Positions 45,209-63,563 of a DNA stretch of 64,000 bases are shown piece by piece. Below the pieces are notes generated by a model that did no database searches, was not told the origin of the DNA, and saw nothing but the letters and a program-made list of their open reading frames with translations. This stretch comes from Polyangium fumosum (GTDB lineage Bacteria > Myxococcota_A > Polyangia > Polyangiales > Polyangiaceae), in assembly GCF_005144585.1 (NCBI RefSeq), contig NZ_SSMQ01000023.1, forward strand, positions 62,001 to 126,000. The letters run 5' to 3'. Within the stretch, counting starts at the first letter, position 1. Each line of letters begins with the position of its first letter. A program made the translations under genes and the position numbers.

Positions 45209-45236
45209 CGGCCGACGTCCGCGAATCGAACGCGCC

Positions 45237-46010
45237 TCAGGGGCAATTGCAATGTACCTGGGCCGTGCCCACGCAGAAGACGTCCCACGACAACTTGCAG
45301 CACGTCTTGTCGATCAGGCAAACGGCGTTCACGCAGGGGTCGCAGAGCGGATCGAGCTCGCCGCCGGGCGTACACGGGTCGTGCGCGCAAGCCGGCGGGC
45401 CCACGCTGCACCCCTCGTCCACCACGCCGTCGCAGTTGTCGTCGACGAGGTTGCCGCACATCTCGTCCTGCGGAGAGGCCAGGGGCGCACACGAGAGCGC
45501 GCCCGCGGCGCACGTGCGGATGCCCTCCGCGCACGCGCCGGGTTCGCCCGTATCGCACGTCTCGCCGCCGCCGGGGTTGTCCTCGTCGATCACGCCGTTG
45601 CAGTCGTTGTCGAGGCCGTCGCAGATCTCGACGGAAGGAGAGGCCGTCTGGACACAAACGAGCCCCGTGTTGCCATGGCAAACGAGCGCGCCCGCGCTGC
45701 ACACGCCCGGCGCGCTCGTGTTGCATTCGTCGCCGACGCCCGGGCTCTCCTCGTCGACCACGCCGTCGCAATCGTCGTCGACGCCGTTGCAAATCTCGGG
45801 GATGCACGCGCTGCCGCCGCTGCCGCCTGCGACACCGCTGCCGCCGCTGCCCACGCTCCCGCCTCCGCCACCGCTTCCGCCTCCGCCTCCACTGCCGGTG
45901 ACGTTTTCCTCCACGACGGGACGTGTCGTCCCCCGCGCGCAACCGGCGGCCCCCACGAGGAGCCCCGCCGAAACCATCACCGCCCATCCCACGAGATACC
46001 GCTCGCCCAT
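45237..46010 (-). CDS. MopE-like metal-binding-repeat lipoprotein
   Basis: A 257-aa lipoprotein: SAGLLVGAAGC lipobox and Gly/Ser linker. Three copies of the 'putative metal-binding' MopE motif follow: EICNGVDDDCDGVVDE, EICDGLDNDCNGVIDE and EMCGNLVDDNCDGVVDE. They are separated by CNTSAPGVCSAG-type disulfide segments. The C-terminus is Cys-rich (CDPCVNAVC, KTCCKLSWDVFCVG). The motif is widespread in myxobacterial secreted proteins and contains clustered Asp/Glu suited to Ca2+; in methanotroph MopE the family name refers to copper binding. The role is unknown. Confidence 0.82.
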   Translation of the reverse strand: MGERYLVGWAVMVSAGLLVGAAGCARGTTRPVVEENVTGSGGGGGSGGGGGSVGSGGSGVAGGSGGSACIPEICNGVDDDCDGVVDEESPGVGDECNTSAPGVCSAGALVCHGNTGLVCVQTASPSVEICDGLDNDCNGVIDEDNPGGGETCDTGEPGACAEGIRTCAAGALSCAPLASPQDEMCGNLVDDNCDGVVDEGCSVGPPACAHDPCTPGGELDPLCDPCVNAVCLIDKTCCKLSWDVFCVGTAQVHCNCP

Positions 46011-46241
46011 CACGCACCCTCCCCCACGTCGACGCGGGCGAACCACCTCATCGGCCGCCCGCGCCAAGCCATCCGGCCCCCTACGATGCTCCAAAGCACG
46101 TAGTGGGGGTCACCAAATGGAATGCGTGAAGAAGCGTTCGCGAGACGAGGACGGAATTCGCCCACGGACAGGCGCCTCGAATACGTGCGCCGCGACCCTC
46201 ATGGTTCTTCCCGCGCCTTCGTCCCGCGTGTACAAGGAGAC

Positions 46242-47390
46242 ATGCTTCGAAACGAAATTGGCTCGGTGGGGCGATGGGGGCGTGTCCTGGGCGTGATGGG
46301 CGCCCTTTCTTTGCTTGCGGCTTGCGGGTCGGGCAATGGCACGACCGGGAGCGGCGGCAACGGCGCAGGCGGGAGTGGGGCCGCCGGCGGGAACGGCGGC
46401 AGCGGCGGCAACGGCGGGGGCGGCAACGGCGGCAGTGGCGGCGTCGGCGGGAGCGGCGGCGCGGGCGGGTCGGGCACACCGGCGGGGCTCTTCGAGGCGC
46501 CGAACCCCTGGAACAAGGACGTCTCGGCCTTGCCGAAAAACGCGGAGTCGGACGCGATCACGGGCTGGCTCGAAGACAATGGCGGCTGGGGCGCGGGCTC
46601 GTTCCGGATCGATTTCAGCATCGAGCTGCTCCACGCCGACGCGAACACCGAGATGCGCACGTTCGAGACCACGAACGATTTCTACTCGCCCGATTGCGAG
46701 CACGTCCCCTACCCCGTCCCGGCCGGCGGCGCGCTCGAGGGCGAGCAGGGGTATGCGTGCACGAACGACGGCGATTGCCACCTGCTCGTCGTGCACGAGC
46801 CGACGAAGACGCTCTACGAGATGTGGCGGGCGAACATCTTGGGCAATACGTTCTACGGCGGCTGCGCGGTGACGTGGGATTTGACGAAGTCGTACCCGCC
46901 GAACCTGCGCGGCGAGGGCTGCACCTCCGCGGACGCGGGCGGCTTCCCCATCTCGGCGATGCTCTTCTCGGCCGACGAGGTGGCGGCCGGCTCGATCGAT
47001 CACGCGATCCGGTTCATCCTGCCGAACGCGCGCATTCGCGACAACGTGTACGTGCATCCGGGCACGCACAGCACGGGCCCGACGTCCGGCGGCCCGAACG
47101 CGCCGCCCTACGGCGTGCGCTTCCGCCTGCGCGCAGATTACCCGCTCGAGACGCTGCCGACCGAGGGCGCCCGCGTGGTCGCGCGAGGCCTCCAGAAATA
47201 CGGCATGTTCCTGGCCGACGCGGGCAACATCGCGCTCACGGCGCAGAGCGACAGGTTCACGACGCACAAATGGGACGAGGTCGGCGTGGACTCGTTCTCG
47301 CTCACGGACATCCAGCCCGGAGACTTCGAGGTCGTCGACATGGGCGACCCGATTCAATGGAGCGGGGACTGCGTGCTGAACCCGCCGTGA
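46242..47390 (+). CDS. Secreted lipoprotein of unknown function
   Basis: A 382-aa lipoprotein: VMGALSLLAAC lipobox and a ~50-residue Gly linker. The mature ~290-residue domain begins APNPWNKDVSALPKNAESDAIT and contains several Trp, paired Cys (YACTNDGDC, GGCAVTW, GEGCTSAD) and VYVHPGTHSTGP. The pattern recalls uncharacterised secreted proteins of actinobacteria and myxobacteria that share an N-terminal NPWN motif, but no function is known to me. AAGGAG lies only two bases before ATG 46242, so a later ATG (46296, within the signal peptide) remains possible. Confidence 0.7.
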   Translation: MLRNEIGSVGRWGRVLGVMGALSLLAACGSGNGTTGSGGNGAGGSGAAGGNGGSGGNGGGGNGGSGGVGGSGGAGGSGTPAGLFEAPNPWNKDVSALPKNAESDAITGWLEDNGGWGAGSFRIDFSIELLHADANTEMRTFETTNDFYSPDCEHVPYPVPAGGALEGEQGYACTNDGDCHLLVVHEPTKTLYEMWRANILGNTFYGGCAVTWDLTKSYPPNLRGEGCTSADAGGFPISAMLFSADEVAAGSIDHAIRFILPNARIRDNVYVHPGTHSTGPTSGGPNAPPYGVRFRLRADYPLETLPTEGARVVARGLQKYGMFLADAGNIALTAQSDRFTTHKWDEVGVDSFSLTDIQPGDFEVVDMGDPIQWSGDCVLNPP

Positions 47391-47396
47391 TCGGCG

Positions 47397-48518
47397 TCAA
47401 AGCATCTCGGGGAAGCGGCTCCAGCGCTCCCCGAAATGCAAGACGAACGGGTTCGTCATGAGCTCGTAACGAAAGCCCTGGATGGGCGCGATCGGCACGT
47501 CCATCGGCAGATCCTCCACGCAGCCATACGAAAAGATCCAGGTCTCGATGACCTGCCCCGTCGGGGCATCCCGCCGCGCGACGCGCTCGATCCGCCATCC
47601 GGACCAGGTGACGTCGGTGATGTACTTCTGCGTGCCCTGATCAAAGACGTCCCACGTGCGCCGGACGAGCCGCCCCGCGTCGTACTCGAAATCGATCGAT
47701 TGATCGAGCACGCCGTCCCCCTTCGTATCGTACTCGACGCGCGTGATGCCCCCGCTCTCGTTCCAGAAGAAGCGGTCGACGTAGTCGGGCTGTCCGTCAC
47801 CGTCGGCGTCGAAGTCCCGCCGCGAGAGCCGCCCCGCCGCGAGGTCTTCATACAAAAAATCCTCGGTGACGACCTGCTCGCCGTTCATGTACACATGTTC
47901 GCCCTTCACGACCCACTGCCCCGCCGCATAGAACTGGCGGTAGACGTGCTCCTCCGTGCCGTCGCCGCCGTCGTCCCACCCCGCTTCGAGGACGAACGGC
48001 TCGCCTCCGAGATACCGGTACCGCATCACGCGGGAGAGGACCCCGTCCTCGAAAAACTCGTCCCGCTCGTGGTTGCCCGCGGCGTCGAAGAAGAAGCGCG
48101 ATTCGCTCCGCGCGTCGCCCTCGGGCTTCGAGGACAGGTACGCCGCGCGGACCACGCGATCCTGGTCGTCCCATTCCCAGATCATCTCGCGGTGCGGGGT
48201 GCTGAAACGGACATCCTCGACCGTCTGCGTGGTCCGTCGGCCCTGCGCGTCATAGCCGCGTTTCACCAGAAAGACCCGCTTGCCCTCCGCCGTCCGCTCG
48301 GCGTACTGGAGGACGCGGCCGCCTTCGCCGTAATGGTAAACGGCCGTGAGGCGAAGCGCTTCGTCGAGCTGGTACTCGATCCGGTTCGTGCAGACCGCCC
48401 CGGGGACCACGTCCTCGTCCTCGTCCTCCACAGGCAGGGAATCGGCCGCGGCGGGCCCCCCGCAGCCCAAGGCGCCAAAGGCCAGCGGGAGGAGGACGAG
48501 CCTGCGGAGGCAGCGCAT
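47397..48518 (-). CDS. Hypothetical lipoprotein with RHS/YD-like sequence and a calcium motif
   Basis: A 373-aa lipoprotein: LPLAFGALGC lipobox. The mature part has many short, Tyr/Asp-rich beta hairpins (YDAQGRRT, WDDQDRVVRAAY, FEYDAGRLVRRTW) resembling YD/RHS-type repeats. One EF-hand-like or thrombospondin-3-like stretch (DFDADGDGQPDYVD) and a second (DTKGDGVLDQSID) are present. The TACCCT box six bases before ATG 48518 predicts a leaderless mRNA. It is separated by six bases from the convergent plus-strand gene. Confidence 0.7.
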   Translation of the reverse strand: MRCLRRLVLLPLAFGALGCGGPAAADSLPVEDEDEDVVPGAVCTNRIEYQLDEALRLTAVYHYGEGGRVLQYAERTAEGKRVFLVKRGYDAQGRRTTQTVEDVRFSTPHREMIWEWDDQDRVVRAAYLSSKPEGDARSESRFFFDAAGNHERDEFFEDGVLSRVMRYRYLGGEPFVLEAGWDDGGDGTEEHVYRQFYAAGQWVVKGEHVYMNGEQVVTEDFLYEDLAAGRLSRRDFDADGDGQPDYVDRFFWNESGGITRVEYDTKGDGVLDQSIDFEYDAGRLVRRTWDVFDQGTQKYITDVTWSGWRIERVARRDAPTGQVIETWIFSYGCVEDLPMDVPIAPIQGFRYELMTNPFVLHFGERWSRFPEML

Positions 48519-48552
48519 CCCCCGAGGGTACACGCAAAAAGCGCCGGAGGGT

Positions 48553-49734
<1,182 letters not shown>

Positions 49735-49794
49735 GAGAGGCTCGATACCACGGCGGGCCCTCGGGCAGGAAGGGCCGTGCTACCCTGGCCCGCC

Positions 49795-50553
49795 ATGAGC
49801 ATCGAGCAGGCCGGAAAGCTCATCGCCGAAGCGCAGTCGGCCCTGTTCATCACGGGCGCGGGCATCTCGGCCGCGTCGGGGATCCCGACGTACCGCGGCG
49901 TGGGCGGGCTCTACGGAGATCGGGGGACCGACGAAGGGATGCCCATCGAAAAGGCCCTCTCCGGCCCGATGTTCCGGCGCTCCCCCGAGCTCACGTGGAA
50001 GTACATCCACCAGATCGAGCAAGCCTGCCGCGGCGCCGCGCCGAACGCCGCGCACGTCGCGCTCTCGCGCCTCGAAGCGCGCCTGCCCCGGAGCTGGGTG
50101 CTCACGCAAAACGTCGACGGCTTCCACCGCGCCGCCGGCTCGCGCAACGTGATCGACATCCACGGCGACATCCACCGGCTCCACTGCACCGGCTGCACGT
50201 TCACCGAGGTCGTCCAAGACTACGCCCACCTCGCCCCCTGCCCCCGCTGCACCTCCTGCGAAGAGGTGCTCCGGCCCGACGTCGTGCTCTTCGGCGAGAT
50301 GTTGCCGATGGCCAAGCTCGAAGTGCTGCAACGCGAGCTCGATCGAGGCTTCGATGTCGTCGTCTCGGTCGGCACGTCGAGCCTCTTCCCGTACATCGCC
50401 GAGCCCGTCCTCGACGCTGCGAGGCACGGCACCCCCACGATCGAGGTCAACCCCGAGCCGACGGTCATCTCGCACGCCGTCGCGCTCCGCCTGCCCATGG
50501 GCGCGGTGGAGGCCCTCGAAGGGATCTGGCGGATCGTGGAGCGCAAGCCGTAG
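49795..50553 (+). CDS. NAD-dependent protein deacylase (SIR2 family)
   Basis: A 252-aa sirtuin: GAGISAASGIPTYRG (21-35) binds NAD, TQNVDGFH (105-111) and the catalytic His123 in IHGDIHR follow. A four-Cys zinc site (C131, C134, C149, C152) sits in CTGC...CPRC. FGEMLP and GTSSLFPYIAEPV complete the fold. Sirtuins remove acyl groups from lysine, making nicotinamide and O-acyl-ADP-ribose. There is no long N-terminal extension. TACCCT eight bases upstream of ATG is a possible -10. Directly downstream lies hairpin-repeat copy C. Confidence 0.95.
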   Translation: MSIEQAGKLIAEAQSALFITGAGISAASGIPTYRGVGGLYGDRGTDEGMPIEKALSGPMFRRSPELTWKYIHQIEQACRGAAPNAAHVALSRLEARLPRSWVLTQNVDGFHRAAGSRNVIDIHGDIHRLHCTGCTFTEVVQDYAHLAPCPRCTSCEEVLRPDVVLFGEMLPMAKLEVLQRELDRGFDVVVSVGTSSLFPYIAEPVLDAARHGTPTIEVNPEPTVISHAVALRLPMGAVEALEGIWRIVERKP

Positions 50554-50555
50554 CG

Positions 50556-50657
50556 CCGGGGTTTCACCCCGGACCCGACGAGGGGTTGTCCACCCCTCGA
50601 CCCGGACCAGGGCCAGCCCTGGACCGCTGGTGCATCGACCGCGATGCGGTCGATGCA
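50556..50657 (-). repeat. Four-hairpin dispersed repeat, copy C (reverse orientation)
   Basis: Plus-strand order: CCGGGG-tttca-CCCCGG (50556-50572), GAGGGGT-tgtcc-ACCCCTC (about 50580-50598), CCAGGGC-ca-GCCCTGG (about 50607-50622), TGCATCGACCGC-gat-GCGGTCGATGCA (50631-50657). Same order as copy A but different stem sequences. It begins three bases after the sirtuin stop. Confidence 0.8.
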
Positions 50658-50765
50658 AAGAGCATCGGTTCGCGCATGTCGGTTGCCTGAAGCGCCACGC
50701 TCGCGAAGAATCGCGCGCGTCCTTTGGCACCACATTCCGGTGCAGCGCTTGTTCGAGGAGAAGAC

Positions 50766-51575
50766 ATGAGGAACATGAAACAAATCCTGGTCGCTTTGGG
50801 GCTCGTGGCGTTCTTGGCCGGCTGCAGCGACGGCGGCAACGAGAACACGGGCGGCGCAGGCGGCGACGGCGGCAGCGGCGCCGCAGGTGGCCAAGGCGGC
50901 GCAGGTGGCCAGGGTGGTCAAGGCGGCGCGGGCGGCGCGGGCGGCGACGATCTGCAGGCCCTTTACGAGGCCGCCGTCACCGACGCCTCGACCCCGGAGG
51001 CGGACGAGATCTCCGACAAGCTGACGGAGATCCGCCCGGACAACGCCGAGCTCGTCCTCGACGCGAATGGCCGGGTGAAGATGGTCACCTGGACCTCGTA
51101 CGCGGGCTACGACGCGCTCGTCGGCATGGAGACGACCGTGCCCGTGGAAGTGTGGGTCACGCCGGCGCCGAAGCTCGCGGAGTTCTGCAAGGCGACGGGC
51201 CTCAAGGGCGCCGCGCTCGACCTCCGGCTGGAGCAGCTCCTCGGCCTGCCCCCCGGAAACGGCAAGACCCGCGTCGTCGAGCTCTGGGTCCCGATGAACA
51301 GCATGTTCCGGCCCTCGCCCGACATGGAGATCGACGACAACGTTGCCCAGCTCGACTTCCCCGCCGGCACGCCGCAGACGCACATCGATTGGATCACCAA
51401 CCTGCGCATGACCTCGTACGGGGACCCCGGGTATCCCTGGACCCAGCTCGGCTACACGTACGACTGGCTCCCGGGCGGCGCGTCCGAGGTCGGCCTGAGC
51501 GAGTTCGTCATCAGCAAGGGGACGATGCTCGCCGTGGCGGACGTGAAGAGCCAGGAAGAGTACTGCACGCCGTGA
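50766..51575 (+). CDS. Hypothetical lipoprotein with Gly linker
   Basis: A 269-aa lipoprotein: VALGLVAFLAGC lipobox and ~35-residue Gly/Ala linker. The mature ~200 residues contain no family motif I recognise (VKMVTWTSYAGYD, VEVWVTPAPKLAEFC, LRLEQLLGLPPGNGKTRVVELWV). The last segment suggests a compact globular domain with two Cys. GAGGAG is seven bases before ATG 50766; an ATG at 50775 is an alternative. Confidence 0.72.
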   Translation: MRNMKQILVALGLVAFLAGCSDGGNENTGGAGGDGGSGAAGGQGGAGGQGGQGGAGGAGGDDLQALYEAAVTDASTPEADEISDKLTEIRPDNAELVLDANGRVKMVTWTSYAGYDALVGMETTVPVEVWVTPAPKLAEFCKATGLKGAALDLRLEQLLGLPPGNGKTRVVELWVPMNSMFRPSPDMEIDDNVAQLDFPAGTPQTHIDWITNLRMTSYGDPGYPWTQLGYTYDWLPGGASEVGLSEFVISKGTMLAVADVKSQEEYCTP

Positions 51576-53337: not shown

Positions 53338-54042
53338 TCAGGGCCGCGCGAGCCGGAACGAGGGATCGTACGCGGAGAGCGAGGGGTACTCGAGCGGCGC
53401 CGTCGTGTCCCAGGCGAGCAGGCGCTCGCGGTAGGCGGCGAGCATGTGGGCGCGATCGGCCTCCGTGGAGCGCGCGGGCGCCCAGGCGACGAAGGACGGC
53501 AGCACGTCGAAGCCGACGTACCGGAAGACGCCCTGGTTCACGGGCGCGAGCAGCATGTTCATGTCGCCCGCGAGGCCGTTCTCCTCGTACATCGTCGCGG
53601 GCCCGCCCGTGGTGACGGAGGCCATGGCCCGCTTGCCGCGCATCGTGCCGTGGTCGTACCACCGGCCCCCGCCGTAGACGCGCTGGAACGCGAACACCCG
53701 ATCCACCCAGCCCTTCAGGATCGCGGGCATCGAGAACCACCACATCGGGAACTGGAAGATCAAGGCGTCGCAGGCGAAGAGTTTTTCCATTTCGGCCTGG
53801 ACCTCGGGCGCAAAGCCGTTCGTCTCGACCGCGTGGGCCTCCTCGACCTGCTGCTTGTAGACGGCGGGATCCTTGCGGCCCGTGAAGTTGTGCGGCCCCG
53901 AAACAGGATCCCAGCCCATCGTGTAGAGATCCGACACGACGACGTCGTGCCCGCCGCCCTCGAACGTCTCGACGGCGAGGCGCGTCAGGGCGGCGTTGAA
54001 GCTCTTCGGCTCGGGGTGCGCGTGAACGATGAACACCTTCAT
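53338..54042 (-). CDS. NAD(P)H:quinone oxidoreductase-like flavodoxin-fold protein
   Basis: A 234-aa protein: MKVFIVHAHPEPKSFNAAL is the NQO/MdaB opening that binds the FMN/FAD phosphate. FQFPMWWFSMPAILKGWVDRVFAF is the flavin-loop signature, and GKRAMASVTTGGP follows. The family reduces quinones by two electrons. GGAG precedes ATG 54042, which is 58 bp downstream of the ornithine-cyclodeaminase-like gene on the same strand. Confidence 0.93.
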   Translation of the reverse strand: MKVFIVHAHPEPKSFNAALTRLAVETFEGGGHDVVVSDLYTMGWDPVSGPHNFTGRKDPAVYKQQVEEAHAVETNGFAPEVQAEMEKLFACDALIFQFPMWWFSMPAILKGWVDRVFAFQRVYGGGRWYDHGTMRGKRAMASVTTGGPATMYEENGLAGDMNMLLAPVNQGVFRYVGFDVLPSFVAWAPARSTEADRAHMLAAYRERLLAWDTTAPLEYPSLSAYDPSFRLARP

Positions 54043-54100
54043 GGCGTGGCGCTCCTTCAAGAAAGACGGCGACCCCCCCGGGGGCGCCACCCGCATCGTA

Positions 54101-55069
54101 TCAGCGGAAAAAGTCGAAGCTCGTCCCGAGCCCCTGTTCACGCGCGGCCGCATGCACGACCCGCGCGAGCGCGACGTCTTGCACGGCGAGCCCCGTCGAA
54201 TCGAACACCGTGATCCGCGCGCCCTCGCGTCCCGGGCGCTTGCCCGCGAGGACCTCGCCGAGCGTCGCGTGGATCTGCTCGCGGCGAAGCTCGCCCGTTT
54301 CCAGCGGGACGTTCACCTCCCCGCTGTGCGTGGCCTGCTCCCAGTCGTCGATGACGACGCGGCCGTCGACGAGGATCGCGGGATCGAGCTCCTGCTTGCC
54401 GTGGGCATCCGCGCCGATCGCGTTGACGTGGGCGCCGTCCTTCACCCAGGCGCGCTTCACGACGGGCGCGCGCGCCGGCGTCGAGGCGTTCACCACGTCC
54501 GCGCCCGAGGCCTCTTCGAGCGAAACGACACGCCCGCGCGCCTCTTCTGCGAACACGCGCGCGGCGTGCTCCGAAACGTCGGCGCAGAGCACCTCGAACG
54601 TGTCGCCGTAGACCGCGCGATGCGCTTCGAGCAGCGTGCGCGCCTGCACGCCGCACCCGACGAACCCCACGGTCCTCGGCGCGCGCGCGGCAAGGTGCTT
54701 CGAGGCGATCGCGGCGGCGGCCCCGGTGCGCACGGCCGTGAGCAACGTCGCATCCATGACGGCGAGCGGCAGCGCGGTCGCGGGATCGGAGAGGATGTAC
54801 ATGCCCATCACGGAGGGCAGATCGAAGCGCGCGGGGTTCTCCGGGTGGGAGTTCACCCACTTCACGCCCGCGGCGCCGTCCACGTACGCGGGCATGGCGC
54901 GTAGATCGCCGTGGTAGGCGTCGAGCTCCAGGTAGACCTTCGGCGGCATGAGCGCGCGGCCCTCGCCGTGCGCGGCGAAGGCGGCCTCGACGGCGGCGAT
55001 CGCGGCCTCCATCGAGAGGAGCTTTTGGACATCGGAGCGCGAGAGGAGGATGGTTGCGTGCGGAGGCAT
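54101..55069 (-). CDS. Ornithine cyclodeaminase / mu-crystallin family dehydrogenase
   Basis: A 322-aa NAD-binding protein. LLSRSDVQKLLSMEAAIAAVE is typical of the N-terminus. MPAYVDGAAGVKWVNSHPENP contains the conserved substrate-binding Lys. TVGFVGCGVQARTLLEA is the Rossmann loop, with NAIGADAHGKQELD carrying the catalytic Asp. Family members are ornithine cyclodeaminase, alanine dehydrogenase, ketimine reductase and the OCD-like enzymes of siderophore or opine pathways; which one cannot be determined. Likely transcribed with the two flavodoxin-fold reductases. Confidence 0.92.
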   Translation of the reverse strand: MPPHATILLSRSDVQKLLSMEAAIAAVEAAFAAHGEGRALMPPKVYLELDAYHGDLRAMPAYVDGAAGVKWVNSHPENPARFDLPSVMGMYILSDPATALPLAVMDATLLTAVRTGAAAAIASKHLAARAPRTVGFVGCGVQARTLLEAHRAVYGDTFEVLCADVSEHAARVFAEEARGRVVSLEEASGADVVNASTPARAPVVKRAWVKDGAHVNAIGADAHGKQELDPAILVDGRVVIDDWEQATHSGEVNVPLETGELRREQIHATLGEVLAGKRPGREGARITVFDSTGLAVQDVALARVVHAAAREQGLGTSFDFFR

Positions 55070-55121
55070 GGGCAGGCCGGCGATATAGATCAGCGAGCGG
55101 CCTGCTTCCACCCGGCGTGGC

Positions 55122-55703
55122 TCAAGGGGCCGGCTTGGCGGCGCGGGCGGCGCGGAGGTGCGCGAGGGCCCCGCCCCAGGCAACAAGCTGGTCGAGCATG
55201 CCGTGTACGGTCTTCTCGTGGTGGTCCGCCGGCTTGAAAATCGAAAAATTCTCGAAATCGGTGCGAAGCGAGAGCGCGACCTGGTTCCGGACGTGGGCGA
55301 TCTGGAGCTCGGACAGGACGAGGCGGAGCTGCTCGACGGCGCGGGTGCCGCCGGCGCTGCCATACGCGACGAACCCGGCGGCCTTGTCGTTCCATTCACG
55401 ATAAAGGAAATCGAGCGCGTTCTTCAGGGCGCCCGAGGGGCCGTGGTTGTATTCGGGGGTGACGAACACGTACGCGTCGAAGGAGGCGATCGTCGCGCTC
55501 CAGGCCTTCGTGTGGTCCTTCGTGTATTTGCCCGTCGACGGAGGGAAAGGCTCGTCGAGCAGCGGGAGGTTGTAGTCCGCGAGGTCGACGAGCTCGAAGC
55601 TCGCGTCCGTGCGCTTTTGGGCGAGGTCGTGCACCCAGCGGGCGACGGCCTCCGCTTTCCGACCGGGGCGCGTGCTGCCGATGACGATGGCGACTCGAAT
55701 CAT
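55122..55703 (-). CDS. NADPH-dependent FMN reductase
   Basis: A 193-aa flavodoxin-like protein: VAIVIGSTRPGRKAEAVARW binds the FMN phosphate; TPEYNHGPSGALKNALDFL is the signature of the NADPH-dependent FMN reductase (chromate/azoreductase-like) family. First gene of a three-gene minus-strand group with the cyclodeaminase-like and quinone reductase-like genes (52 and 58-bp gaps). AGGAG lies ~12 bases upstream of ATG. Confidence 0.93.
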   Translation of the reverse strand: MIRVAIVIGSTRPGRKAEAVARWVHDLAQKRTDASFELVDLADYNLPLLDEPFPPSTGKYTKDHTKAWSATIASFDAYVFVTPEYNHGPSGALKNALDFLYREWNDKAAGFVAYGSAGGTRAVEQLRLVLSELQIAHVRNQVALSLRTDFENFSIFKPADHHEKTVHGMLDQLVAWGGALAHLRAARAAKPAP

Positions 55704-55891
55704 GCGAGGTCGATCTCCTGGGGGGGGTTGTCTCGCCGCAGCGTGCCACGGATGGGCCGGTTTTGCGGGAGAATCCGCTGCCGTTTGGCTTTCTCGTCGA
55801 AGCCACGAGGCGCACGAGCGCCCGTGGAGGGAGCTTGCCCGCCCCGCCCGGGTGCGGGTACCTTCCCCCCGGACGAGCAGAGGAGCCTCGG

Positions 55892-56539
55892 GTGCCGGAG
55901 GACATCGCCGCGCTTTTACGGAGAGCCCTCGCGGGCGAGCGGGCCGCGGTCCGCGCGTTGATCGATGCGCTCGCGCCCGTCGTGCAGGCCCGCGTCGCCC
56001 GCATGTTGCTCCGGCGCCGCGCGCCCCAGCGTGATATCCGCCAGGAGACGGAGGACCTCGTCCAGGAGGTGTTCGTCGTCCTTTTCGCCGACTCCGCCCG
56101 CGCCTTGCGCCAATGGGATCCCGCGCGCGGAATGAGCCTCCCCAATTTCGTCGGCCTCGTCGCGGAGCGCGAGGTCATCTCCATCCTGCGCAGCAAACGG
56201 CGCAACCCCTGGACCGAAGAGCCGATGCTCGACGAGGAGCTCGACCCGAAACACGGCGAGCAGCCCTCGGCGGAGCGGCTCTTCGAGGACCGGGAGGCCC
56301 TCGCGGCCCTGCTCGCGGCCATCCGCGCGCGGCTCGGCGACCGCGGAATGCTCCTCTTTCAATGGCTCGTCGTCGAAGGCCGGCCCGTCGAGGAGATCTG
56401 CGCCGCGCTGGGCATGACCCCGGACGCCGTGTATGCCTGGAAGAGCCGCCTCGCCAAGCTCGTTCGCGAGGTCGCCGAGGATCTCGCGTCAGACCCGGGC
56501 CTTTCGCCGCGAATCCCCTCGTCCAAGGTCAAGCCATGA
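55892..56539 (+). CDS. RNA polymerase sigma factor, ECF-like
   Basis: A 215-aa sigma-70-family protein. The GTG at 55892 is preceded by AGAGGAG; an upstream ATG (55763) would add 43 low-complexity residues. Region 2 is visible as DLVQEVFVVLFADSARALRQWDP, with FVGLVAEREVISILRSKRRNP as the region-2.4-like helix. Region 4 is GRPVEEICAALGMTPDAVYAWKSRLAKLVREV, a clear helix-turn-helix. The stop overlaps the next ATG (ATGA). Its target promoter is unknown; the partner is the downstream membrane protein. Confidence 0.88.
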   Translation: MPEDIAALLRRALAGERAAVRALIDALAPVVQARVARMLLRRRAPQRDIRQETEDLVQEVFVVLFADSARALRQWDPARGMSLPNFVGLVAEREVISILRSKRRNPWTEEPMLDEELDPKHGEQPSAERLFEDREALAALLAAIRARLGDRGMLLFQWLVVEGRPVEEICAALGMTPDAVYAWKSRLAKLVREVAEDLASDPGLSPRIPSSKVKP

Positions 56540-57315
56540 AGGACGACGACCTCCTCGACGCCCTCGGGCGCGCCGCGCGAAAAGACGATCGCCTCGCCGA
56601 TCCGCGCTGGGATGCGCTCGCCCGCGGCGAGCTGTCCGACGAGGAAATCAAGACGCTCGCCGAAGGCTCGGACGCCGCGCGCGACGCGGTCGAGGCCTTT
56701 CGTCCGCTCGGCGAACCGACGCGCGCGCGCCTCACCGAGCAAGCCCTCGCCGCGCTCGGCGCGCAAAACCCCGGCGCGGCCCCCGCCGAGGTCGTCCGGC
56801 GCAAGCACCCGCGACGCGCGCTCTTCGTTCTGCTCGCCGCTTGCCTGGCCGCCCTCGTCGCGTTCGTGTGGCTCGCACGAAACGACGCAGGGCCCCCGCT
56901 CCCGGCGTATGCCCTCGCCGTCGAAGGCGGGGATCGACCGTTCCGCGCGGATACACCCTCCCCCGACGAACCCCGCCTCGCCCCCGGGTCCCGGCTTTCC
57001 CTCTCGATCCGGCCCGCCGCGGACGTGCTCGGCGCCGTCGAGGCGCGCGCCTATTCGATACGAGACGGCGTCGTCGCTCCTTCTCGCCCGCGCATCGAGA
57101 TCGCCGCGAGCGGCGCGATGCTCGTCACGGGCACGCGTGAGGAGCTCTTCCCCGACGTCGGGCCGGGCCGGCTTCAGATCGTGATCCTCGTGGGCCGGCC
57201 GGGGACGCTGCCCGAACACACGCCCGCCGCTGCCGAGCTCGCCCCCGAGGGCCCTCCGCGGGCCTTTCAGGTCCTGCGCGCCGCCGTTTGGCTCACGGAC
57301 CCGAACGAACGATGA
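56536..57315 (+). CDS. Single-pass membrane protein, probable anti-sigma factor
   Basis: A 259-aa protein. A cytoplasmic N-terminal ~90 residues (helical; WDALARGELSDEEIKTL, typical of short anti-sigma heads) is followed by one membrane helix (95-114). A ~145-residue periplasmic domain (LAPGSRLSLSIRPA, AYSIRDGVV, LVTGTREELFP) then looks beta-rich. The head is not the classical zinc-binding type. The anti-sigma role is inferred from gene order. Overlaps ATGA at both ends. Confidence 0.75.
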   Translation: MKDDDLLDALGRAARKDDRLADPRWDALARGELSDEEIKTLAEGSDAARDAVEAFRPLGEPTRARLTEQALAALGAQNPGAAPAEVVRRKHPRRALFVLLAACLAALVAFVWLARNDAGPPLPAYALAVEGGDRPFRADTPSPDEPRLAPGSRLSLSIRPAADVLGAVEARAYSIRDGVVAPSRPRIEIAASGAMLVTGTREELFPDVGPGRLQIVILVGRPGTLPEHTPAAAELAPEGPPRAFQVLRAAVWLTDPNER

Positions 57316-60053
57316 GCGCGCGCGTTTCCCGTTGGCTCGTGGCCCTTCTGTGCTGCGTTGCCTGCGAGGACGCGCCCGCCCCGCCCGCCCCGCCCCCGCT
57401 TCGTGTCGAGTTCGCCGGCTGCGCGGCCGTGCGCGAAGGCCCGGTCTGCGAGGTCCTCGCCCCGAGCGCGCTGACCTTCTGGGTCGAGACCCCCGAGGAC
57501 GCCCATCTCTCCGCCGAGATCGACGGCGCGACGCAATCCTTCCCCACGGCGAGCGCGCCGGGAGGCCGCCGCGTGACCGTGGACGTGCCCGCGGGCAGCC
57601 GGGAGGTCGCCCTTCGCGCCACGCGCGGCGGCGCGGCTGCGGTCTTTCGGCTTCGCCTCGAACCGCTCGTCACCTCGCCGGCCCTCGACGAGGCCGAGGC
57701 CCTGCGCCGCCGCGGAAAGCTCGACGAGGCCGAGGCGAAGCTCGCCGCGCTGCCATCGGATCCTTCCCGCGTCCTTCGCCTGGGAGCGCTCCGCAAACGC
57801 GCGCGTATCGAGAGCAAGCGCGGGGCCCTGGAGCAAGCCGCCCGCCTGTTCGCCGAAGCGCTCACGGAGGATCGCGCGCTCGGCCGTGTCTCCGACGAGC
57901 TGCACGACCGCTTCGCCCTCTTCCACATGCACCTGTATACGGGCCGCCGCTTCGCCGACGCGCGCGCCGCGCTCTCCGACGTCGAGCGCCTCGCGCGTGA
58001 TTTCCCCGAGGGCCGCGTGATGGCTTCGTATTACGAGGGCCTGCTCGCGCGGGAGACCGGCGACCTGCGCGGCGCGCTCGGCCACCTGCGCGCCTCGCAA
58101 GAGGCCGCGGCCCGGCTCGGCTTCGAGGCCCAGCGCGTCGACGCGCTCGAAGTCGAAGCGAGCGTCCTCTCGCAGCTCGGCCGCCACCACGATGCGCTCG
58201 CCGCCATGGATGCGGCGCGCGGCGCTTTGCCCGCAGACGCGAGCCCGTGCCGGCGCGCCGAATCCGACAACAACCTGGGCTGGGTCGCCCTGCGCGCGGA
58301 CGCGGACGGGCAAGGGCCACGCGCGCCGGAGCCTCCGCTCCGCGCGGCGCTCGAAGGTTTCCGCAAGGAATGCCCGCGACCGGCGGAGGTCGCGAACGTC
58401 CTCCTGAACCTCGGCCTGCACGCGATGCATCGAGACCACCCCGAGCAGGCGCGGGCCCACCTCGAAGAAGCCCGGCGCGCCGCCCCCCGCGTGGATGCGC
58501 GTTTCGAGGCCTGGGCCGCGGTGCTGGACGGCCGCATCGCCCTCGCCAAGCCGGAGACACGCACGGCCCTCGCGCCACACGAGCGAACGCGCGCCATCGG
58601 ACGGGCCGCGCTCCTCTCGGACGTGGAGCTCGAAGGTGCGCTCGGCCGCGCGCGGGCGCTCGAGGCGCTCGGCCGGACGGACGATGCGCAGCGCGCGTAT
58701 GCCGAGGCCGACGTGTTGCTCGACGTCGCGCTCCGGGCCGTCCCGCTCGGCGAAGGCCGCGAGACCTTCCTGCATGGCGCCGAGCAGGTCACGCGCCTGC
58801 GGGTCGAGTTCCTCCTCGGGCGGGCCGAAAAAGCGGATCGCGGCGCGCGCGACGCGTGGCTGCGGGAAGCGGCGCTCGCGGCCAAACACGGCAAATCGAG
58901 GCTCTTGCGGGCGCTCGGATGCGCGGCGCCTGCCTCGCCGACCCGCCGCGAGGCGCTCGATCGCTCTCTCACCCGATACCAACAAGGGCGCGCCGCCCTC
59001 GAAGCGGAGCTCGCCGCATCGTGGCGGCTGCCGGGAAACCGCCTCGACGCGGCGCTCCGCGCGCACGACGCGCGTATCAAGGACCTGCGCGCCGCCCTCG
59101 ACGACGCGCTCGCGCACCTTTGCCCGCACGACCCCGATTCCACGCGAGGACCCTTCGTCCCAGCCCCCTCCGAGGTCACGCTCGTCCACCTGCCCACGCG
59201 CCGCGGGTGGACCGGCTTTGCAATCACATCCGACGCGATCGTCGTTCACGACGCTGTGGGCGCTCGGCCCGACCTTTCGCCGTCCCGCCTCGCCGAGGCG
59301 CTGCTCGAGCCCTTCGCAGGCATCCTTCGCGGCGCGTCGCGGCTGCGGCTGATCACGCATCCGTCGCTGGATCGGCTCGATCTGCACGCGCTGCCCTTCG
59401 AGGGCGCTCCGCTCGGCGCGCGCCTGCCCGTCGTGCACGGCGCGGGATTCGACCGCCCGCCGAGGCCCCCTTCGGAGGGCCCGCGGAAGGCGCTCGTCGT
59501 CGCCGATCCACGCGGCAACCTTCCCGGCGCGCGCGAGGAGGCCCGCGTGGTCGCCGCCGCGCTCCGCGCGCGGGGCGCCTCGGTCCTCTTGCTCGAAGGA
59601 GAGGCCGCCACGCACGCCGCCGTGGTCGCGGCGTTGACGGATCCGGCGACGCACCTGTTTCACTTCGCGGGTCACGGGATCTACGAGGGCCGTGACGGCT
59701 GGGAGAGCGCCTTGCCGCTCGCCACGGGCGCGCTCGCCGTGGCGGACGTCCTCGCGCTCGCGCGGGTGCCGGCCGACGTCGTGCTCTCGGGCTGCGATAC
59801 GGGCCGGGCGGGGACGAGCGCCGCCGCCGAGGGCCTCGGGCTCGGGCAGGCCTTCGTCGTCGCCGGGGCGCGGGCCGTCGTCGCCTCGACGCGCCCCATC
59901 GAGGACAAGAAGACGCTGCCGTTCGTGCGCGCCTTGTACGGCGACAGCGCGGGGCCGCTCGACCTGGTCGCGGCGCTCCACCACGCCCGGCGCGCGGCGC
60001 ACGAGGGGGATGGGCCGAGCGACGTGGCGAGCTTCCGACTCCTCTCGCCTTGA
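57312..60053 (+). CDS. TPR-CHAT caspase-like protease lipoprotein
   Basis: A 913-aa protein. VALLCCVAC is the lipobox-like signal. Residues ~130-560 form TPR-like helical repeats (AEALRRRGKLDEAEAKLAAL and similar). The C-terminal CHAT domain (~690-913) has the catalytic dyad: His788 in FHFAGHG and Cys828 in VLSGCDTG. AFVVAGARAVVASTRPIEDKKT matches the family. CHAT proteases are caspase/separase-related peptidases with Arg or Lys preference in known cases. It is the third gene of an overlapping operon with a sigma factor, a membrane protein and a subtilase. A signal peptide is unusual for a CHAT protease and would place it in the periplasm or outside. Confidence 0.88.
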   Translation: MSARVSRWLVALLCCVACEDAPAPPAPPPLRVEFAGCAAVREGPVCEVLAPSALTFWVETPEDAHLSAEIDGATQSFPTASAPGGRRVTVDVPAGSREVALRATRGGAAAVFRLRLEPLVTSPALDEAEALRRRGKLDEAEAKLAALPSDPSRVLRLGALRKRARIESKRGALEQAARLFAEALTEDRALGRVSDELHDRFALFHMHLYTGRRFADARAALSDVERLARDFPEGRVMASYYEGLLARETGDLRGALGHLRASQEAAARLGFEAQRVDALEVEASVLSQLGRHHDALAAMDAARGALPADASPCRRAESDNNLGWVALRADADGQGPRAPEPPLRAALEGFRKECPRPAEVANVLLNLGLHAMHRDHPEQARAHLEEARRAAPRVDARFEAWAAVLDGRIALAKPETRTALAPHERTRAIGRAALLSDVELEGALGRARALEALGRTDDAQRAYAEADVLLDVALRAVPLGEGRETFLHGAEQVTRLRVEFLLGRAEKADRGARDAWLREAALAAKHGKSRLLRALGCAAPASPTRREALDRSLTRYQQGRAALEAELAASWRLPGNRLDAALRAHDARIKDLRAALDDALAHLCPHDPDSTRGPFVPAPSEVTLVHLPTRRGWTGFAITSDAIVVHDAVGARPDLSPSRLAEALLEPFAGILRGASRLRLITHPSLDRLDLHALPFEGAPLGARLPVVHGAGFDRPPRPPSEGPRKALVVADPRGNLPGAREEARVVAAALRARGASVLLLEGEAATHAAVVAALTDPATHLFHFAGHGIYEGRDGWESALPLATGALAVADVLALARVPADVVLSGCDTGRAGTSAAAEGLGLGQAFVVAGARAVVASTRPIEDKKTLPFVRALYGDSAGPLDLVAALHHARRAAHEGDGPSDVASFRLLSP

Positions 60054-62179
60054 ACGATCTTTTTTCCGAAGCCGCGTCAGATGGCCGCTCCCCGCGGCGA
60101 AGACCCAGGATGCGCCCGAAGCGCATCCCCATGCTTATGGTCTCCCGACGCACGCTTCTCCGCCCGGGCCGAGGGCCCGGCGTCCTCTCGGCCTTCGCGT
60201 CTTTCGCGACCGCTCTCGTTCTTTCGACGAGCTGCTCTCCGGAGCCCCCACCGCTGCACGACGTGTCCCCAGGGCTCTCGCCCATGGCGGGCGGGACGTC
60301 GACGCCCACGGCGGGATGCGCGGGCCTGCGCTGGGTGGGCCTGTCCACGACCGGCGCGTGCCCAATGCCACCCCCGGGCTGGGTCGGCGGGCCGGCCTTT
60401 GGCGTCCCCGCGGGCAGCCCGCCCTTGCCGCCGTACCTCGCGGATTATTGCCTCTATTCATGGACCGCGCCCGGGCTGCCTGCGGCGGCGGACGTGAACA
60501 ACCTCGGCGTCCAGCTCGCGGGCGCGGGTGTCCTCGGCCTGGCGGAGGATTGTGTCGTGGTCGGGCCGCTCGCGGACGGTTTCTCCGACGCGTCACGCGA
60601 ATGGCTGCACGCCGAATACATGTCGCGGATGGGCAGCTTCGGTCCGCTCACGTTCGGGAGCAAGCGGCCGGCCGAAGTGCGCATCGCGCTGGCCGACTCC
60701 TCGCCCGACGACACGGCGGGGACCCTCCCGCTCGGCACGCTCGACCATGGTTATCTGCTCGGCTGGCTCGCGAAAGACCTCGCCTGCCCCGCGGGCGGCC
60801 CTTGCGCGGCGCGCGTCACGACCGAGCTCGCCCTCCCGCGGATCGACGCCGAGAAGGCGGACTTCACGAAGGGGGGCCTGGTCGGCACCCGGCTCGACCT
60901 GGCCCGCGCGATCGTCATGGCCGTCGAGCGGTGGAAAAAAGACCGCGCCGATCACCTCCTCCTCGGCGCCGGCGTCGATCATCCGCGCCTCGTCGTCAAC
61001 CTCAGCGTCGGCTGGGAGCCCGCGCTCGGCTGCGACAGCAATCCCGCGTCGAATGCGGTCTCGGCGTCGGTCTACGATGCCCTGGTCCACGCCCATTGCC
61101 ATGGCGCGGCCGTCATCGCCGCCGCGGGCAACGACAGGGGCGGCCCGAGCCCTCCCCACGGATTGGTCTGTCCAGCCGCCTGGACGGTCGATGCCGGGCC
61201 GACCTCCGGGACCTGCACGTCCCTCGAAGGAACGGGGTACACGAATGCCTTCGCCGGTGGCCTGCCCCTGTTTCCGCCGGGCCGCGAGCCTCCGCTGGTG
61301 CATGCCGTCGGCGGGCTGGAGTATGCGGATCGACCCATTGCACGGACGAGGCCGGAGGGCATGCCGCCCCTCGCCGCGCTCGCGCTCCAGGGCGTCGCCG
61401 CGGGGCCGTCGCGGCCCTTCCCCGCGCCGCGCACGGGCACTTCGCTCGGCGCGGCGGCGGTGTCGGCGATTGCCGCGGCGGCGTGGGCCTACCGGCCGAG
61501 CCTCTCCGCGGGGGAGCTCCTGGAGCTCGTATACGCATCGGGCGAACGAACCAACCTCGTCGCGGACGTGCCCTCGCCGGCGGAGGTGAAACGCCCCTCG
61601 CTCTGCGCCGCGATCGCGGCAGTCTGCTCGCTCGGGAACAACGCCGCGTGTCCGCCCGGCCTCGCCTGCGCGCCCATCCCGCCGCGATTCGACCAGAACC
61701 CGCCTTTGTTCCCGGGTGGGCTCGCGCTCCTCGACGCGGCGTTCGAGGACGCGCCCGCGTTCGTGGCGCCTCCGCCGAGCGACGACCCGGCGCCGAGCGA
61801 GCAGGTTCCGAGCCTCGCCATCCCTCCGTGGGTGCGTCCGCAACCCGACAGCCCGCCTTGCGGCTCGTGTGTGATTCACTTTGGCTCTGTCCACGACCCG
61901 GCCTGGCTCGTGGTGGAGCTTGATTCTCGTTATGGCCGGGAGCTCACGGACATGAGCTTGATCCTCTCCGGCGTGACCCCTGCGGGGACGCTCGCGCGGG
62001 TGACGGTGGGCCCGCTCGGGCCGGCGCAGATGAACGGCCTGACCGGGCCGTTCCGCGTGACGGGGATCCAGCGCTCCTCGCTCGCGCGCGTGAGCTCGGC
62101 GGTGCTCTCGTGGCAGTCCACGGACCCGGTGACGGGCGAGGTGGGCTCCGTGAGCGAGCAGATTTTGATTTCCGATTGA
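60050..62179 (+). CDS. Subtilase (S8) lipoprotein
   Basis: Up to 709 aa. TTG at 60050 overlaps the CHAT stop (TTGA), in line with the operon's other overlaps. ATG at 60110 or 60137 would trim a long basic n-region and is equally plausible. The signal (LSAFASFATALVLSTSC) has a lipobox-like Cys62. The S8 triad is visible in order: Asp216 in RIALADSS, His233 in DHGYLLGWL, the oxyanion Asn361 in AAAGND and Ser465 in TGTSLGAAAVS. The C-terminal ~130 residues form a beta-rich extension. The substrate is unknown; with the CHAT protein it makes a two-protease module. Confidence 0.85.
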   Translation: MNDLFSEAASDGRSPRRRPRMRPKRIPMLMVSRRTLLRPGRGPGVLSAFASFATALVLSTSCSPEPPPLHDVSPGLSPMAGGTSTPTAGCAGLRWVGLSTTGACPMPPPGWVGGPAFGVPAGSPPLPPYLADYCLYSWTAPGLPAAADVNNLGVQLAGAGVLGLAEDCVVVGPLADGFSDASREWLHAEYMSRMGSFGPLTFGSKRPAEVRIALADSSPDDTAGTLPLGTLDHGYLLGWLAKDLACPAGGPCAARVTTELALPRIDAEKADFTKGGLVGTRLDLARAIVMAVERWKKDRADHLLLGAGVDHPRLVVNLSVGWEPALGCDSNPASNAVSASVYDALVHAHCHGAAVIAAAGNDRGGPSPPHGLVCPAAWTVDAGPTSGTCTSLEGTGYTNAFAGGLPLFPPGREPPLVHAVGGLEYADRPIARTRPEGMPPLAALALQGVAAGPSRPFPAPRTGTSLGAAAVSAIAAAAWAYRPSLSAGELLELVYASGERTNLVADVPSPAEVKRPSLCAAIAAVCSLGNNAACPPGLACAPIPPRFDQNPPLFPGGLALLDAAFEDAPAFVAPPPSDDPAPSEQVPSLAIPPWVRPQPDSPPCGSCVIHFGSVHDPAWLVVELDSRYGRELTDMSLILSGVTPAGTLARVTVGPLGPAQMNGLTGPFRVTGIQRSSLARVSSAVLSWQSTDPVTGEVGSVSEQILISD

Positions 62180-62208
62180 ACGACCCCCTGGTCTTGCCAC
62201 CGGCCCGT

Positions 62209-62310
62209 TGGAAGAACTGCGCATCGCGCAGTTCTTCCACCTTCGGTCCAGGCCGCGCCTGGTTCGGGTCGAGGGGCGAACAGCCCCCGCGGGGTCCGGG
62301 GCGGCGCCCC
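62209..62310 (+). repeat. Four-hairpin dispersed repeat, copy D (forward orientation)
   Basis: Order: TGGAAGAACTGCGC-atc-GCGCAGTTCTTCCA (62209-62239), CCAGGC-cgc-GCCTGG (about 62248-62262), GGGGC-gaaca-GCCCC (about 62272-62286), GGGGC-ggc-GCCCC (62298-62310). It fills the gap between the subtilase stop and the convergent cytochrome gene, where it could also act as a terminator. Confidence 0.82.
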
Positions 62311-62333
62311 GGCGCGGCGGCCTGCGCGAAGGC

Positions 62334-63491
62334 TCAGGGACTCCCGCAGACCTCGTTCGAGTCCACGCTGTCCACCCCGCCTGCCTTGCATTGCGCGCGA
62401 TAGCAGTAGACCGTCACCGACGAATAAGCGCCGTCGTCGTGTTGCTCGATCGTGCTGCCTCCGAGCGTGTAAACGAGCGAGAAGGCCCCGCCGTTCTCGT
62501 TGCGGTAAAGGAGGATCTTGTCGCATCCCGCCGCGGTCCACGTGACGTGGAGCGCGTCTCCCATCGGGATGACCTGATCGAGCACGGGAGGCTGCGGCAT
62601 CGGGGGCGCGTCGTACACGCGGGGCCACACCAATCGACCCGGAGCCCCCTCGGTGCCCTGCTCGGTATGGCACTTGTTGCAATCGCCGTCGGTCTGCGGC
62701 CCGGTCATGGAGCGCGTGACTCCATTCGCGACGAGCCGCGCCGAATACGGGACCGGCACGCCTGCCACGACCGCGCTCGACATGAAGTTGCCGGCGGCGT
62801 TCGGCAGGAGCGTCATCGTCACCTTGCCCGTCGTGTCGAGGATCTCCACCTTCGCGCCGGGCGGCGGCGGGCTCAGGCAAAGATCCTTCTCGTGGAACGC
62901 GGGAAAGACCGTGCCCATGAAGAAATAATTGAAATCCGAGGCCTGGGTCTTGTGACATGCGCGGCACGCGAGGCCCGGGTTCATCTGGGCCGTCGACGTT
63001 GCGGCCGGATCCCAGGTCTTGCCGCTCGCGCACGTGGTCTCCGCCGGCTTGTCGGGAATGGCCCCGCACGACCCCGCCGGCATGCCCGCGGCCACCCATT
63101 GCTCGAAGACTTCCACCTGCTTCGTCGACGCGGGGGGTTCCGACAAGGGCGGCATCGGCGCTGCTGGCAAATGCATTCGTTCAAGGCTCCGTTCCCCGAC
63201 GGTCTTGCCAGTGTCGCCCGCGAGCGCGAGGAAATCGTGCCGCGTGACGAGGGGCATGGGCGCCCCGGCCGCGACAGGGGACGCGTGGCAGCTCACGCAG
63301 ATTTCTTCGAGGACCTCACGCACGTCGCAGGGAAGCTCGTTGGGTCCCAGGTCGACGCCGGCGTCCGGCGCTTGCCCCGTCGAGGACGCGCCCTGGGGGT
63401 CCTCACCCGAAGGAGGGCCGCCCGACGAGCAACCGAGGGCGGACACCATGAGGAGAGAAAAAAAGGAGAAAGCCGTTTCTCGGGCGCGCAT
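62334..63491 (-). CDS. Triheme cytochrome c-like lipoprotein
   Basis: A 385-aa lipoprotein: LLMVSALGC lipobox (Cys21). Three CxxCH heme c motifs are present: CVSCH (65-69), CRACH (176-180) and CNKCH (271-275). The first two domains resemble the cytochrome c-type 'PPKLSEPP/MPP' organisation of the copper monooxygenase fusion in this window. The last ~80 residues look like a fibronectin-III-like beta domain (LHVTWTAAGCDKILLYR). It is a probable envelope electron carrier; no oxidase partner is adjacent. Confidence 0.85.
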   Translation of the reverse strand: MRARETAFSFFSLLMVSALGCSSGGPPSGEDPQGASSTGQAPDAGVDLGPNELPCDVREVLEEICVSCHASPVAAGAPMPLVTRHDFLALAGDTGKTVGERSLERMHLPAAPMPPLSEPPASTKQVEVFEQWVAAGMPAGSCGAIPDKPAETTCASGKTWDPAATSTAQMNPGLACRACHKTQASDFNYFFMGTVFPAFHEKDLCLSPPPPGAKVEILDTTGKVTMTLLPNAAGNFMSSAVVAGVPVPYSARLVANGVTRSMTGPQTDGDCNKCHTEQGTEGAPGRLVWPRVYDAPPMPQPPVLDQVIPMGDALHVTWTAAGCDKILLYRNENGGAFSLVYTLGGSTIEQHDDGAYSSVTVYCYRAQCKAGGVDSVDSNEVCGSP

Positions 63492-63563
63492 GCGCGGGAG
63501 TATCACCGACGGCGCGCCGCTCGGCCATGCGGCGGATTGTCGCATGGCGCGCGGCAGACCCTG

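Follow-up and report, generated by a model that had tools for sequence, protein, structure and literature searches.

A 64,000-nucleotide stretch of the 12.98 Mb genome of Polyangium fumosum (GCF_005144585.1, contig NZ_SSMQ01000023.1, positions 62,001-126,000; hereafter the window, taken at its full length) carries a locus in which the gene for an extracytoplasmic function (ECF) sigma factor overlaps that for a single-pass membrane protein, and is followed by a TPR-CHAT caspase-like protease and then by a CxxC protein with an active-looking subtilase (S8) domain. The locus most likely corresponds, in the envelope, to systems that place an ECF sigma factor under protease control, Csx29/Csx30/CASP-sigma among them; it would apparently represent a form of signalling already known in kind, with the caspase-like protease placed in the envelope. 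That the CHAT protein itself lies in the signal path between envelope and sigma factor, making the locus an envelope signalling module, is a reading to which we give slightly less than even weight. We hold more tentatively a fuller version, in which CHAT would provide site-1-type cleavage on the outer side of the membrane within a transmembrane ECF sigma pathway; in some species a single polypeptide would span the membrane, with the anti-sigma domain at one end and TPR-CHAT at the other. In this version CHAT would work with an exported CxxC partner whose subtilase domain was inserted or lost more than once, and the whole would form an extracytoplasmic caspase-like signalling cascade across Myxococcota.

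The gene set recurs in diverged genomes. A survey of 183 genomes of the order (E <= 0.001) found CHAT relatives in at least 43 and S8 relatives in at least 17, counts that are lower bounds because few candidates were scored per genome; membrane-protein matches were found in 47 of the 183. We took 60 wide regions around the order-wide matches, called genes with a codon-based caller, and built profiles; 54 loci had a called CHAT relative, and 42 of these were kept as the main sample (CHAT longer than 800 amino acids, and at least 2.5 kb from both stretch ends), the remaining 12 being set aside on length or end distance. Relative loci that were compared with the window are labelled L064, L213, and so on. 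The membrane protein lies near CHAT in 41 of the 42 loci, and so does the sigma factor (37 called, and four more, L064, L089, L090, and L092, found by frame search); in L103, the one locus that departs from this, the match is confined to positions 2-303 of the 880-position profile. One of two CHAT genes missed by the caller, L085, also has both sigma factor and membrane protein. The preliminary description had staked its proposal beforehand on conservation of gene order in relatives, and the set is indeed conserved. Gene order and strand do vary among lineages, as might be expected of chance neighbours without joint function, but such repeated co-occurrence contradicts that explanation, to which we give next to no credence and which we reject.

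Table 1. Features of the sigma factor-CHAT-subtilase locus, in positions of the window
Feature	Positions	Strand	Description
ECF-type sigma-70 factor	55892..56539	+	215 amino acids, GTG start; TIGR02937, Sigma70_r2
Single-pass membrane protein, probable anti-sigma factor	56536..57315	+	259 amino acids; helical N-part, membrane helix, immunoglobulin-like ectodomain
Membrane helix of probable anti-sigma factor, residues 92-115	56809..56880	+	helix prediction, AlphaFold model
Predicted exported TPR-CHAT caspase-like protease	57312..60053	+	913 amino acids; Pfam CHAT, His788/Cys828, short N-terminal signal
CHAT catalytic domain, residues 659-901	59286..60014	+	Pfam
Predicted exported lipoprotein with subtilase (S8) domain	60050..62179	+	709 amino acids from TTG; Pfam Peptidase_S8, triad, model fold
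S8 N-flanking part, residues 52-215	60203..60694	+	also in small genes beside CHAT
S8 C-flanking CxxC part, residues 588-709	61811..62176	+	also in small genes beside CHAT

The four genes are reading frames placed as the preliminary description had them, all on the same strand. Its further claim that all four overlap is sound for the two ATGA overlaps (56536-56539 and 57312-57315), both of which join plausible starts. The third, TTGA at 60050-60053, is present in the sequence and requires a TTG start for S8; the signal peptide would look more ordinary if translation began at one of the ATG codons 21, 28, and 30 (60110, 60131, and 60137). In L065, the closest relative, the codon-based caller starts S8 at the position matching codon 28, but in the window it starts the gene only at 60284, past the signal. 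L065 and the window are nearly identical upstream of S8 and so favour none of these starts, and the CHAT/S8 overlap is accordingly only tentative.

The CHAT protein matches Pfam CHAT (PF12770) at 98.6 bits (cut-off 24), and its catalytic residues, His788 and Cys828, correctly named from the start, are invariant in 42 of 42 aligned relatives. A sequence search of solved structures with this protein returned TPR proteins and one designed protein; the same search with S8 returned nothing. Three lines of evidence bear on where CHAT acts. i) Export was called by a simple N-terminal signal rule and a lipobox-like count, using start positions from the codon-based caller, several of which are wrong (that of the window S8 among them). 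The window CHAT start passes the simple rule and has a lipobox-like cysteine, but its signal is short, under the 19-residue threshold. The lipoprotein-type signals first ascribed to both proteases stand as predicted export of each. The simple rule is crude, hydrophobic N-termini being found also in 10/52 sigma proteins and 317/788 other genes; the lipobox-like count discriminates better, being met by 21/48 separate CHAT proteins, 22/32 S8 proteins, and none of 52 sigma factors, yet also by 134/788 other genes. ii) Two cysteines close to the start of the CHAT protein, C37 and C46, show conservation of 90% or more, as in exported proteins. iii) In 7 of the 42 loci (L064, L073, L075, L076, L077, L104, and L111) the membrane protein and TPR-CHAT are fused into one protein, with no signal at its own start in any of the seven; Arg/Lys precedes the helix, and no second hydrophobic segment lies ahead of the CHAT domain (six shown). 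Because it is fused after the membrane helix, the CHAT domain of these proteins should lie outside the cytoplasm. Taken together, these features strongly suggest that TPR-CHAT is extracytoplasmic, whether it is a lipoprotein or is joined to the anti-sigma ectodomain.

Since the fusions join CHAT to the presumptive anti-sigma factor, they argue that the two work together, which favours signalling over mere output. The competing explanation, which we consider rather unlikely, is that the sigma/anti-sigma pair only times expression of the operon, and that CHAT processes or activates the S8 protein or CxxC lipoprotein at the surface as an output, with no feedback to the anti-sigma factor. The opposite strands on which CHAT and membrane protein lie in 11 of the 42 loci are consistent with it, as are three loci, described below, in which S8 accompanies a sigma factor and a kinase-like protein without CHAT; however, the seven fusions are hard to explain without joint work, and in 23 further loci CHAT and membrane protein share one strand. 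The fusions form one branch of the CHAT tree (support 93/92, not starred).

The sigma factor passes the cut-offs of NCBIfam TIGR02937 (sigma70-ECF; 48.4 bits, cut-off 42.9) and Pfam Sigma70_r2 (26.8, cut-off 24), while its region 4 match (Sigma70_r4_2, 16.4) is under the cut-off of 25.7. The membrane protein has one membrane helix with an Arg/Lys run just before it, and single-pass topology is also that of the anti-sigma factors RseA and RsiW. Its AlphaFold model (mean predicted local distance difference test score, pLDDT, 84.6) has helices in its N-part, then the membrane helix, then a beta-sandwich ectodomain; in fold comparison this ectodomain (residues 121-257) is immunoglobulin-like, as many proteins are, with a best Z of 9.4 and values of 7-8 for most of the matches listed. 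A fold search with the whole model matched this ectodomain, with no anti-sigma factor among the matches listed. An HxxxCxxC motif occurs in 4 of 92 membrane-protein relatives, a count that includes loci present twice (L150, L193, L213, and L214), most members having no zinc ligands; of the two motif carriers scanned with zf-HC2, L213 (4208-4966) passes at 23.6 (cut-off 22.2) and L150 is below at 13.6. Because L213, a divergent relative, passes zf-HC2 and the membrane-protein gene adjoins the sigma gene, an anti-sigma role is probable for the membrane protein, with its N-terminus inside, and the sigma/anti-sigma pair of the preliminary description stands in that form. As a separate observation, membrane-protein relatives in L223, L224, L225, and L232 lie beside two other genes (encoding about 350-400 and 180-200 amino acids) without CHAT, perhaps a second sigma system.

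The S8 protein is just above the Pfam Peptidase_S8 cut-off (22.7, cut-off 21.8), and its triad (D216, H233, and S465), also named correctly beforehand, is invariant in 24 of 24 relatives. The model has a subtilisin fold (mean pLDDT 63.8) and is weak outside the catalytic part, so we propose no fold for the flanking parts. A signal ending in ALVLSTSC is visible in the window translation, the L065 equivalent passes the simple rule, and several cysteines are conserved in 21-24 of the 24 relatives, as in exported proteins. An open frame in L211 (7789-11826) encodes both an S8 domain (residues 280-800) and a sigma factor (residues 1152-1338). It is odd to find a protease meant for export in one chain with a factor that works in the cytoplasm, and a lost stop could account for it.

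Many CHAT loci without a subtilase have instead small genes encoding an S8 N- or C-flanking domain with no catalytic domain. Among 742 local predicted proteins, the first profile round matched 6 small proteins to the N-part (E <= 1.6e-5) and 5 to the C-part (E <= 4.5e-4); two rounds of rebuilding gave 9 N-part matches (E <= 2e-15; next best 0.2) and 9 C-part matches (E <= 8e-15; next best 0.028, itself a CHAT neighbour), and the catalytic-part profile found no other protein better than 0.057. All 18 small proteins are encoded no more than two genes away from CHAT, compared with 112 of 584 proteins of no core family. Profile-profile comparison (hhalign) gave 95.7 for small proteins against the S8 N-part and 95.1 against the S8 C-part. 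The N-part small proteins have tails that scored 86.4 over 23 columns against the S8 C-part but showed no match to the C-part small proteins (0.4 and 2.3), which leaves S8 as the only link between the two sets. By partner, the 42 CHAT loci comprise 19 with S8, 14 with a profile-supported small gene, 7 with only an unsupported small CxxC neighbour, and 2 with none called (L103 and L086; L139, a named copy of L086, shows an N-part by frame search). The unsupported genes, counted apart, have an hhalign probability of 6.3 against the S8 C-part (five compared); a CxxC neighbour is found in 7/7 CHAT loci of this class, compared with 15/252 other small genes. On a CHAT tree of 45 rows the S8 state is clustered: it requires at least four changes, against a mean of 15 after shuffling, and well-supported branches force two of the four. 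The absence of S8 may be scored wrongly in three rows, L084, L088, and L115, which are close to the ends of their stretches. Since small genes carrying the flanking domains without the catalytic part replace S8 beside CHAT, the subtilase domain is, on this comparative evidence, the variable piece and the CxxC partner the more constant one. The sigma-CHAT-subtilase set originally described thus does recur, with the amendment that the subtilase is no fixed part of it, the exported partner being able to lack a catalytic domain.

Within the order, S8 matches at E <= 1e-10 define 19 loci, of which 17 have CHAT and the other two (L119 and L120) are at contig ends; L119 (14-3629) holds two tandem S8 relatives. 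The window genome itself carries a second, paralogous copy of the set (L064). Named CHAT relatives come from Polyangium, Sorangium (including Sorangium cellulosum So ce26 and So0157-2), and other myxobacteria; Pyxidicoccus caerfyrddinensis (L132) has sigma factor, membrane protein, CHAT, and S8 in window order, and So0157-2 and two Polyangium contigs (L125, L126, and L127) have a C-part small gene and no S8. Across the phylum (377 genomes, with 3 S8 and 2 CHAT candidates scored per genome), S8 occurs in at least 39 genomes (E <= 1e-10) and CHAT in at least 43 (E <= 1e-30), some of them outside the class of the window. From 51 S8 regions listed outside the order we took 40 (those left out were one strong match, G436:C462, and ten at 2e-15 to 1e-10); S8 was called in 38, and CHAT lies within four genes in 30 of the 38. 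Of the eight without a called nearby CHAT, L198 has one that appeared in the survey but not among the called genes, L204 and L207 lie where their contigs end, and L181, L185, L186, L208, and L213 are taken up below.

On the signalling reading, the TPR region would sense an envelope event; CHAT would then cleave the anti-sigma ectodomain, the CxxC partner, or both, and thereby begin to free the sigma factor; the freed sigma factor would turn on the operon with its secreted protease; and that protease would act at or beyond the cell surface. Both roles can hold at once, with CHAT in the signal path and the CxxC/S8 protein as substrate and output. If true, caspase-like signalling moves into the bacterial envelope, multicellular and predatory myxobacteria gain a protease-based sensor, and the CxxC lipoproteins, the S8 protein, and the anti-sigma ectodomain are candidate CHAT substrates.

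Several observations weigh against this reading. We infer the substrate, trigger, and direction of signalling, and cleavage, binding, and expression are predictions. The window membrane protein matches no Pfam or NCBIfam family above cut-off, and has neither the zinc ligands (HxxxCxxC) nor the zf-HC2 match of a class I (zinc) anti-sigma factor. L213, the sole relative to pass zf-HC2, has S8 with sigma factor and membrane protein and no called CHAT; and L078, the other CHAT gene missed by the caller, has neither sigma factor nor membrane protein within 17.5 kb. S8 occurs without CHAT beside a sigma factor and a large kinase-like protein in L181 (9872-16396), L185 (8434-14711), and L208 (3328-9867), and beside a kinase-like protein in L186 (3258-9080), with kinase and WD40 domains found by Pfam in L181 and L185 and the kinase likeness of L186 and L208 judged from N-terminal sequence; these loci suggest that the S8 protein can be the output of a sigma circuit with another sensor. 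In 20 regions around membrane-protein matches away from CHAT loci, sigma factor and membrane protein occur without CHAT nearby in L216, L218, L230, and L231 (the last with an N-part small gene) and on the 3.9 kb contig of L217; L229 has only the sigma factor, a CHAT match is present in each of L219, L221, and L233, nothing was found in L220, and the remaining ten have the membrane protein with other genes. Finally, a search for 4+3-base dyads in 35 regions upstream of sigma genes found no promoter motif above shuffled sequence (best count 14, against maxima of 11-15 over 20 shuffles).

Type III CRISPR systems include one with SAVED-CHAT and a caspase cascade with a sigma factor, and the type III-E system Craspase is marked by an RNA-guided Cas7-11 and a CRISPR array. 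The closest known system in logic is Csx29/Csx30/CASP-sigma, and the closest in gene content is ECF54. In the first (Craspase/DiCASP), a TPR-CHAT protease likewise stands beside an ECF sigma factor and its inhibitor, and in the model of the paper cleavage of the inhibitor frees the sigma factor (PMC10028731); that system, the TPR-CHAT control of an ECF sigma factor found in print, is cytoplasmic, RNA-triggered, and CRISPR-linked, whereas here CHAT is predicted to lie outside, a membrane protein is the probable inhibitor, and positions 40000-64000 of the window hold no CRISPR-like array among repeats of at least 22 bases. ECF54 (listed representative, Geodermatophilus) shares the CHAT and subtilase genes in its context, and is reported to have a carboxypeptidase and no anti-sigma factor (PMC8999054); the window locus, in a myxobacterial host, differs in its membrane anti-sigma candidate, and no carboxypeptidase is found among eight scanned proteins of 53338-63545. 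Given the similar neighbourhood described for ECF54 (PMC8999054), the proposal made for that group, direct action of the proteases on their sigma factor, could be carried over to this locus, but we regard this as very improbable: both proteases have export-type starts, the fusions place CHAT outside and away from the sigma factor, and a probable anti-sigma factor is present. CalpL/CalpT/CalpS also unites protease, anti-sigma factor, and ECF sigma factor in one unit, but its protease is Lon-type and activated by cyclic oligoadenylate (PMC11417357). RseA/DegS and RsiW share regulated proteolysis of an anti-sigma factor (cited in PMC10028731); here the candidate outer protease is a caspase-like CHAT that can be fused to the membrane protein. 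The earlier view that no such system had been described therefore needs narrowing, since CHAT, subtilase, and ECF sigma genes are known together in ECF54, and TPR-CHAT with an ECF sigma factor in Csx29/Csx30/CASP-sigma; a literature search (most subscription journals lying outside its coverage) gave no description of this myxobacterial set among the matches listed. Sigma relatives also lie about 2 kb or less from CHAT-domain genes in L157, L158, and L165 (a Thermodesulfobacteriota metagenome-assembled genome, Desulfonema magnum, and a deltaproteobacterial metagenome-assembled genome), which hints at a wider ECF-CHAT link.

CHAT and subtilase proteases have been linked to bacterial death systems, and PADLOC BovA models match the CHAT region (best 6e-8), so that a defence or programmed-death module with both proteases as executioners has to be considered. 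We think it improbable: the seven proteins given to PADLOC have no other match at E <= 0.01, the Pfam results of the scanned proteins include no gasdermin or nucleotide sensor, and the export-type starts and the lack of a CRISPR-like array in 40000-64000 point the same way.

Other features were noted in passing. A protein of 955-993 amino acids, with no Pfam family above cut-off, is encoded between the fused CHAT gene and S8 in L064 (7080-10061), L073, L075, L076, and L077, and has a signal-like N-terminus in L064; a protein of about 1180 amino acids is divergently encoded upstream in L064, L075, L076, and L077. Elsewhere in the window, 44592-50927 contains 9-base repeats and three genes with lipoprotein-like starts and Gly-rich linkers, and a lipoprotein-like gene on the minus strand (62334-63545) has weak cytochrome-type CxxCH matches.

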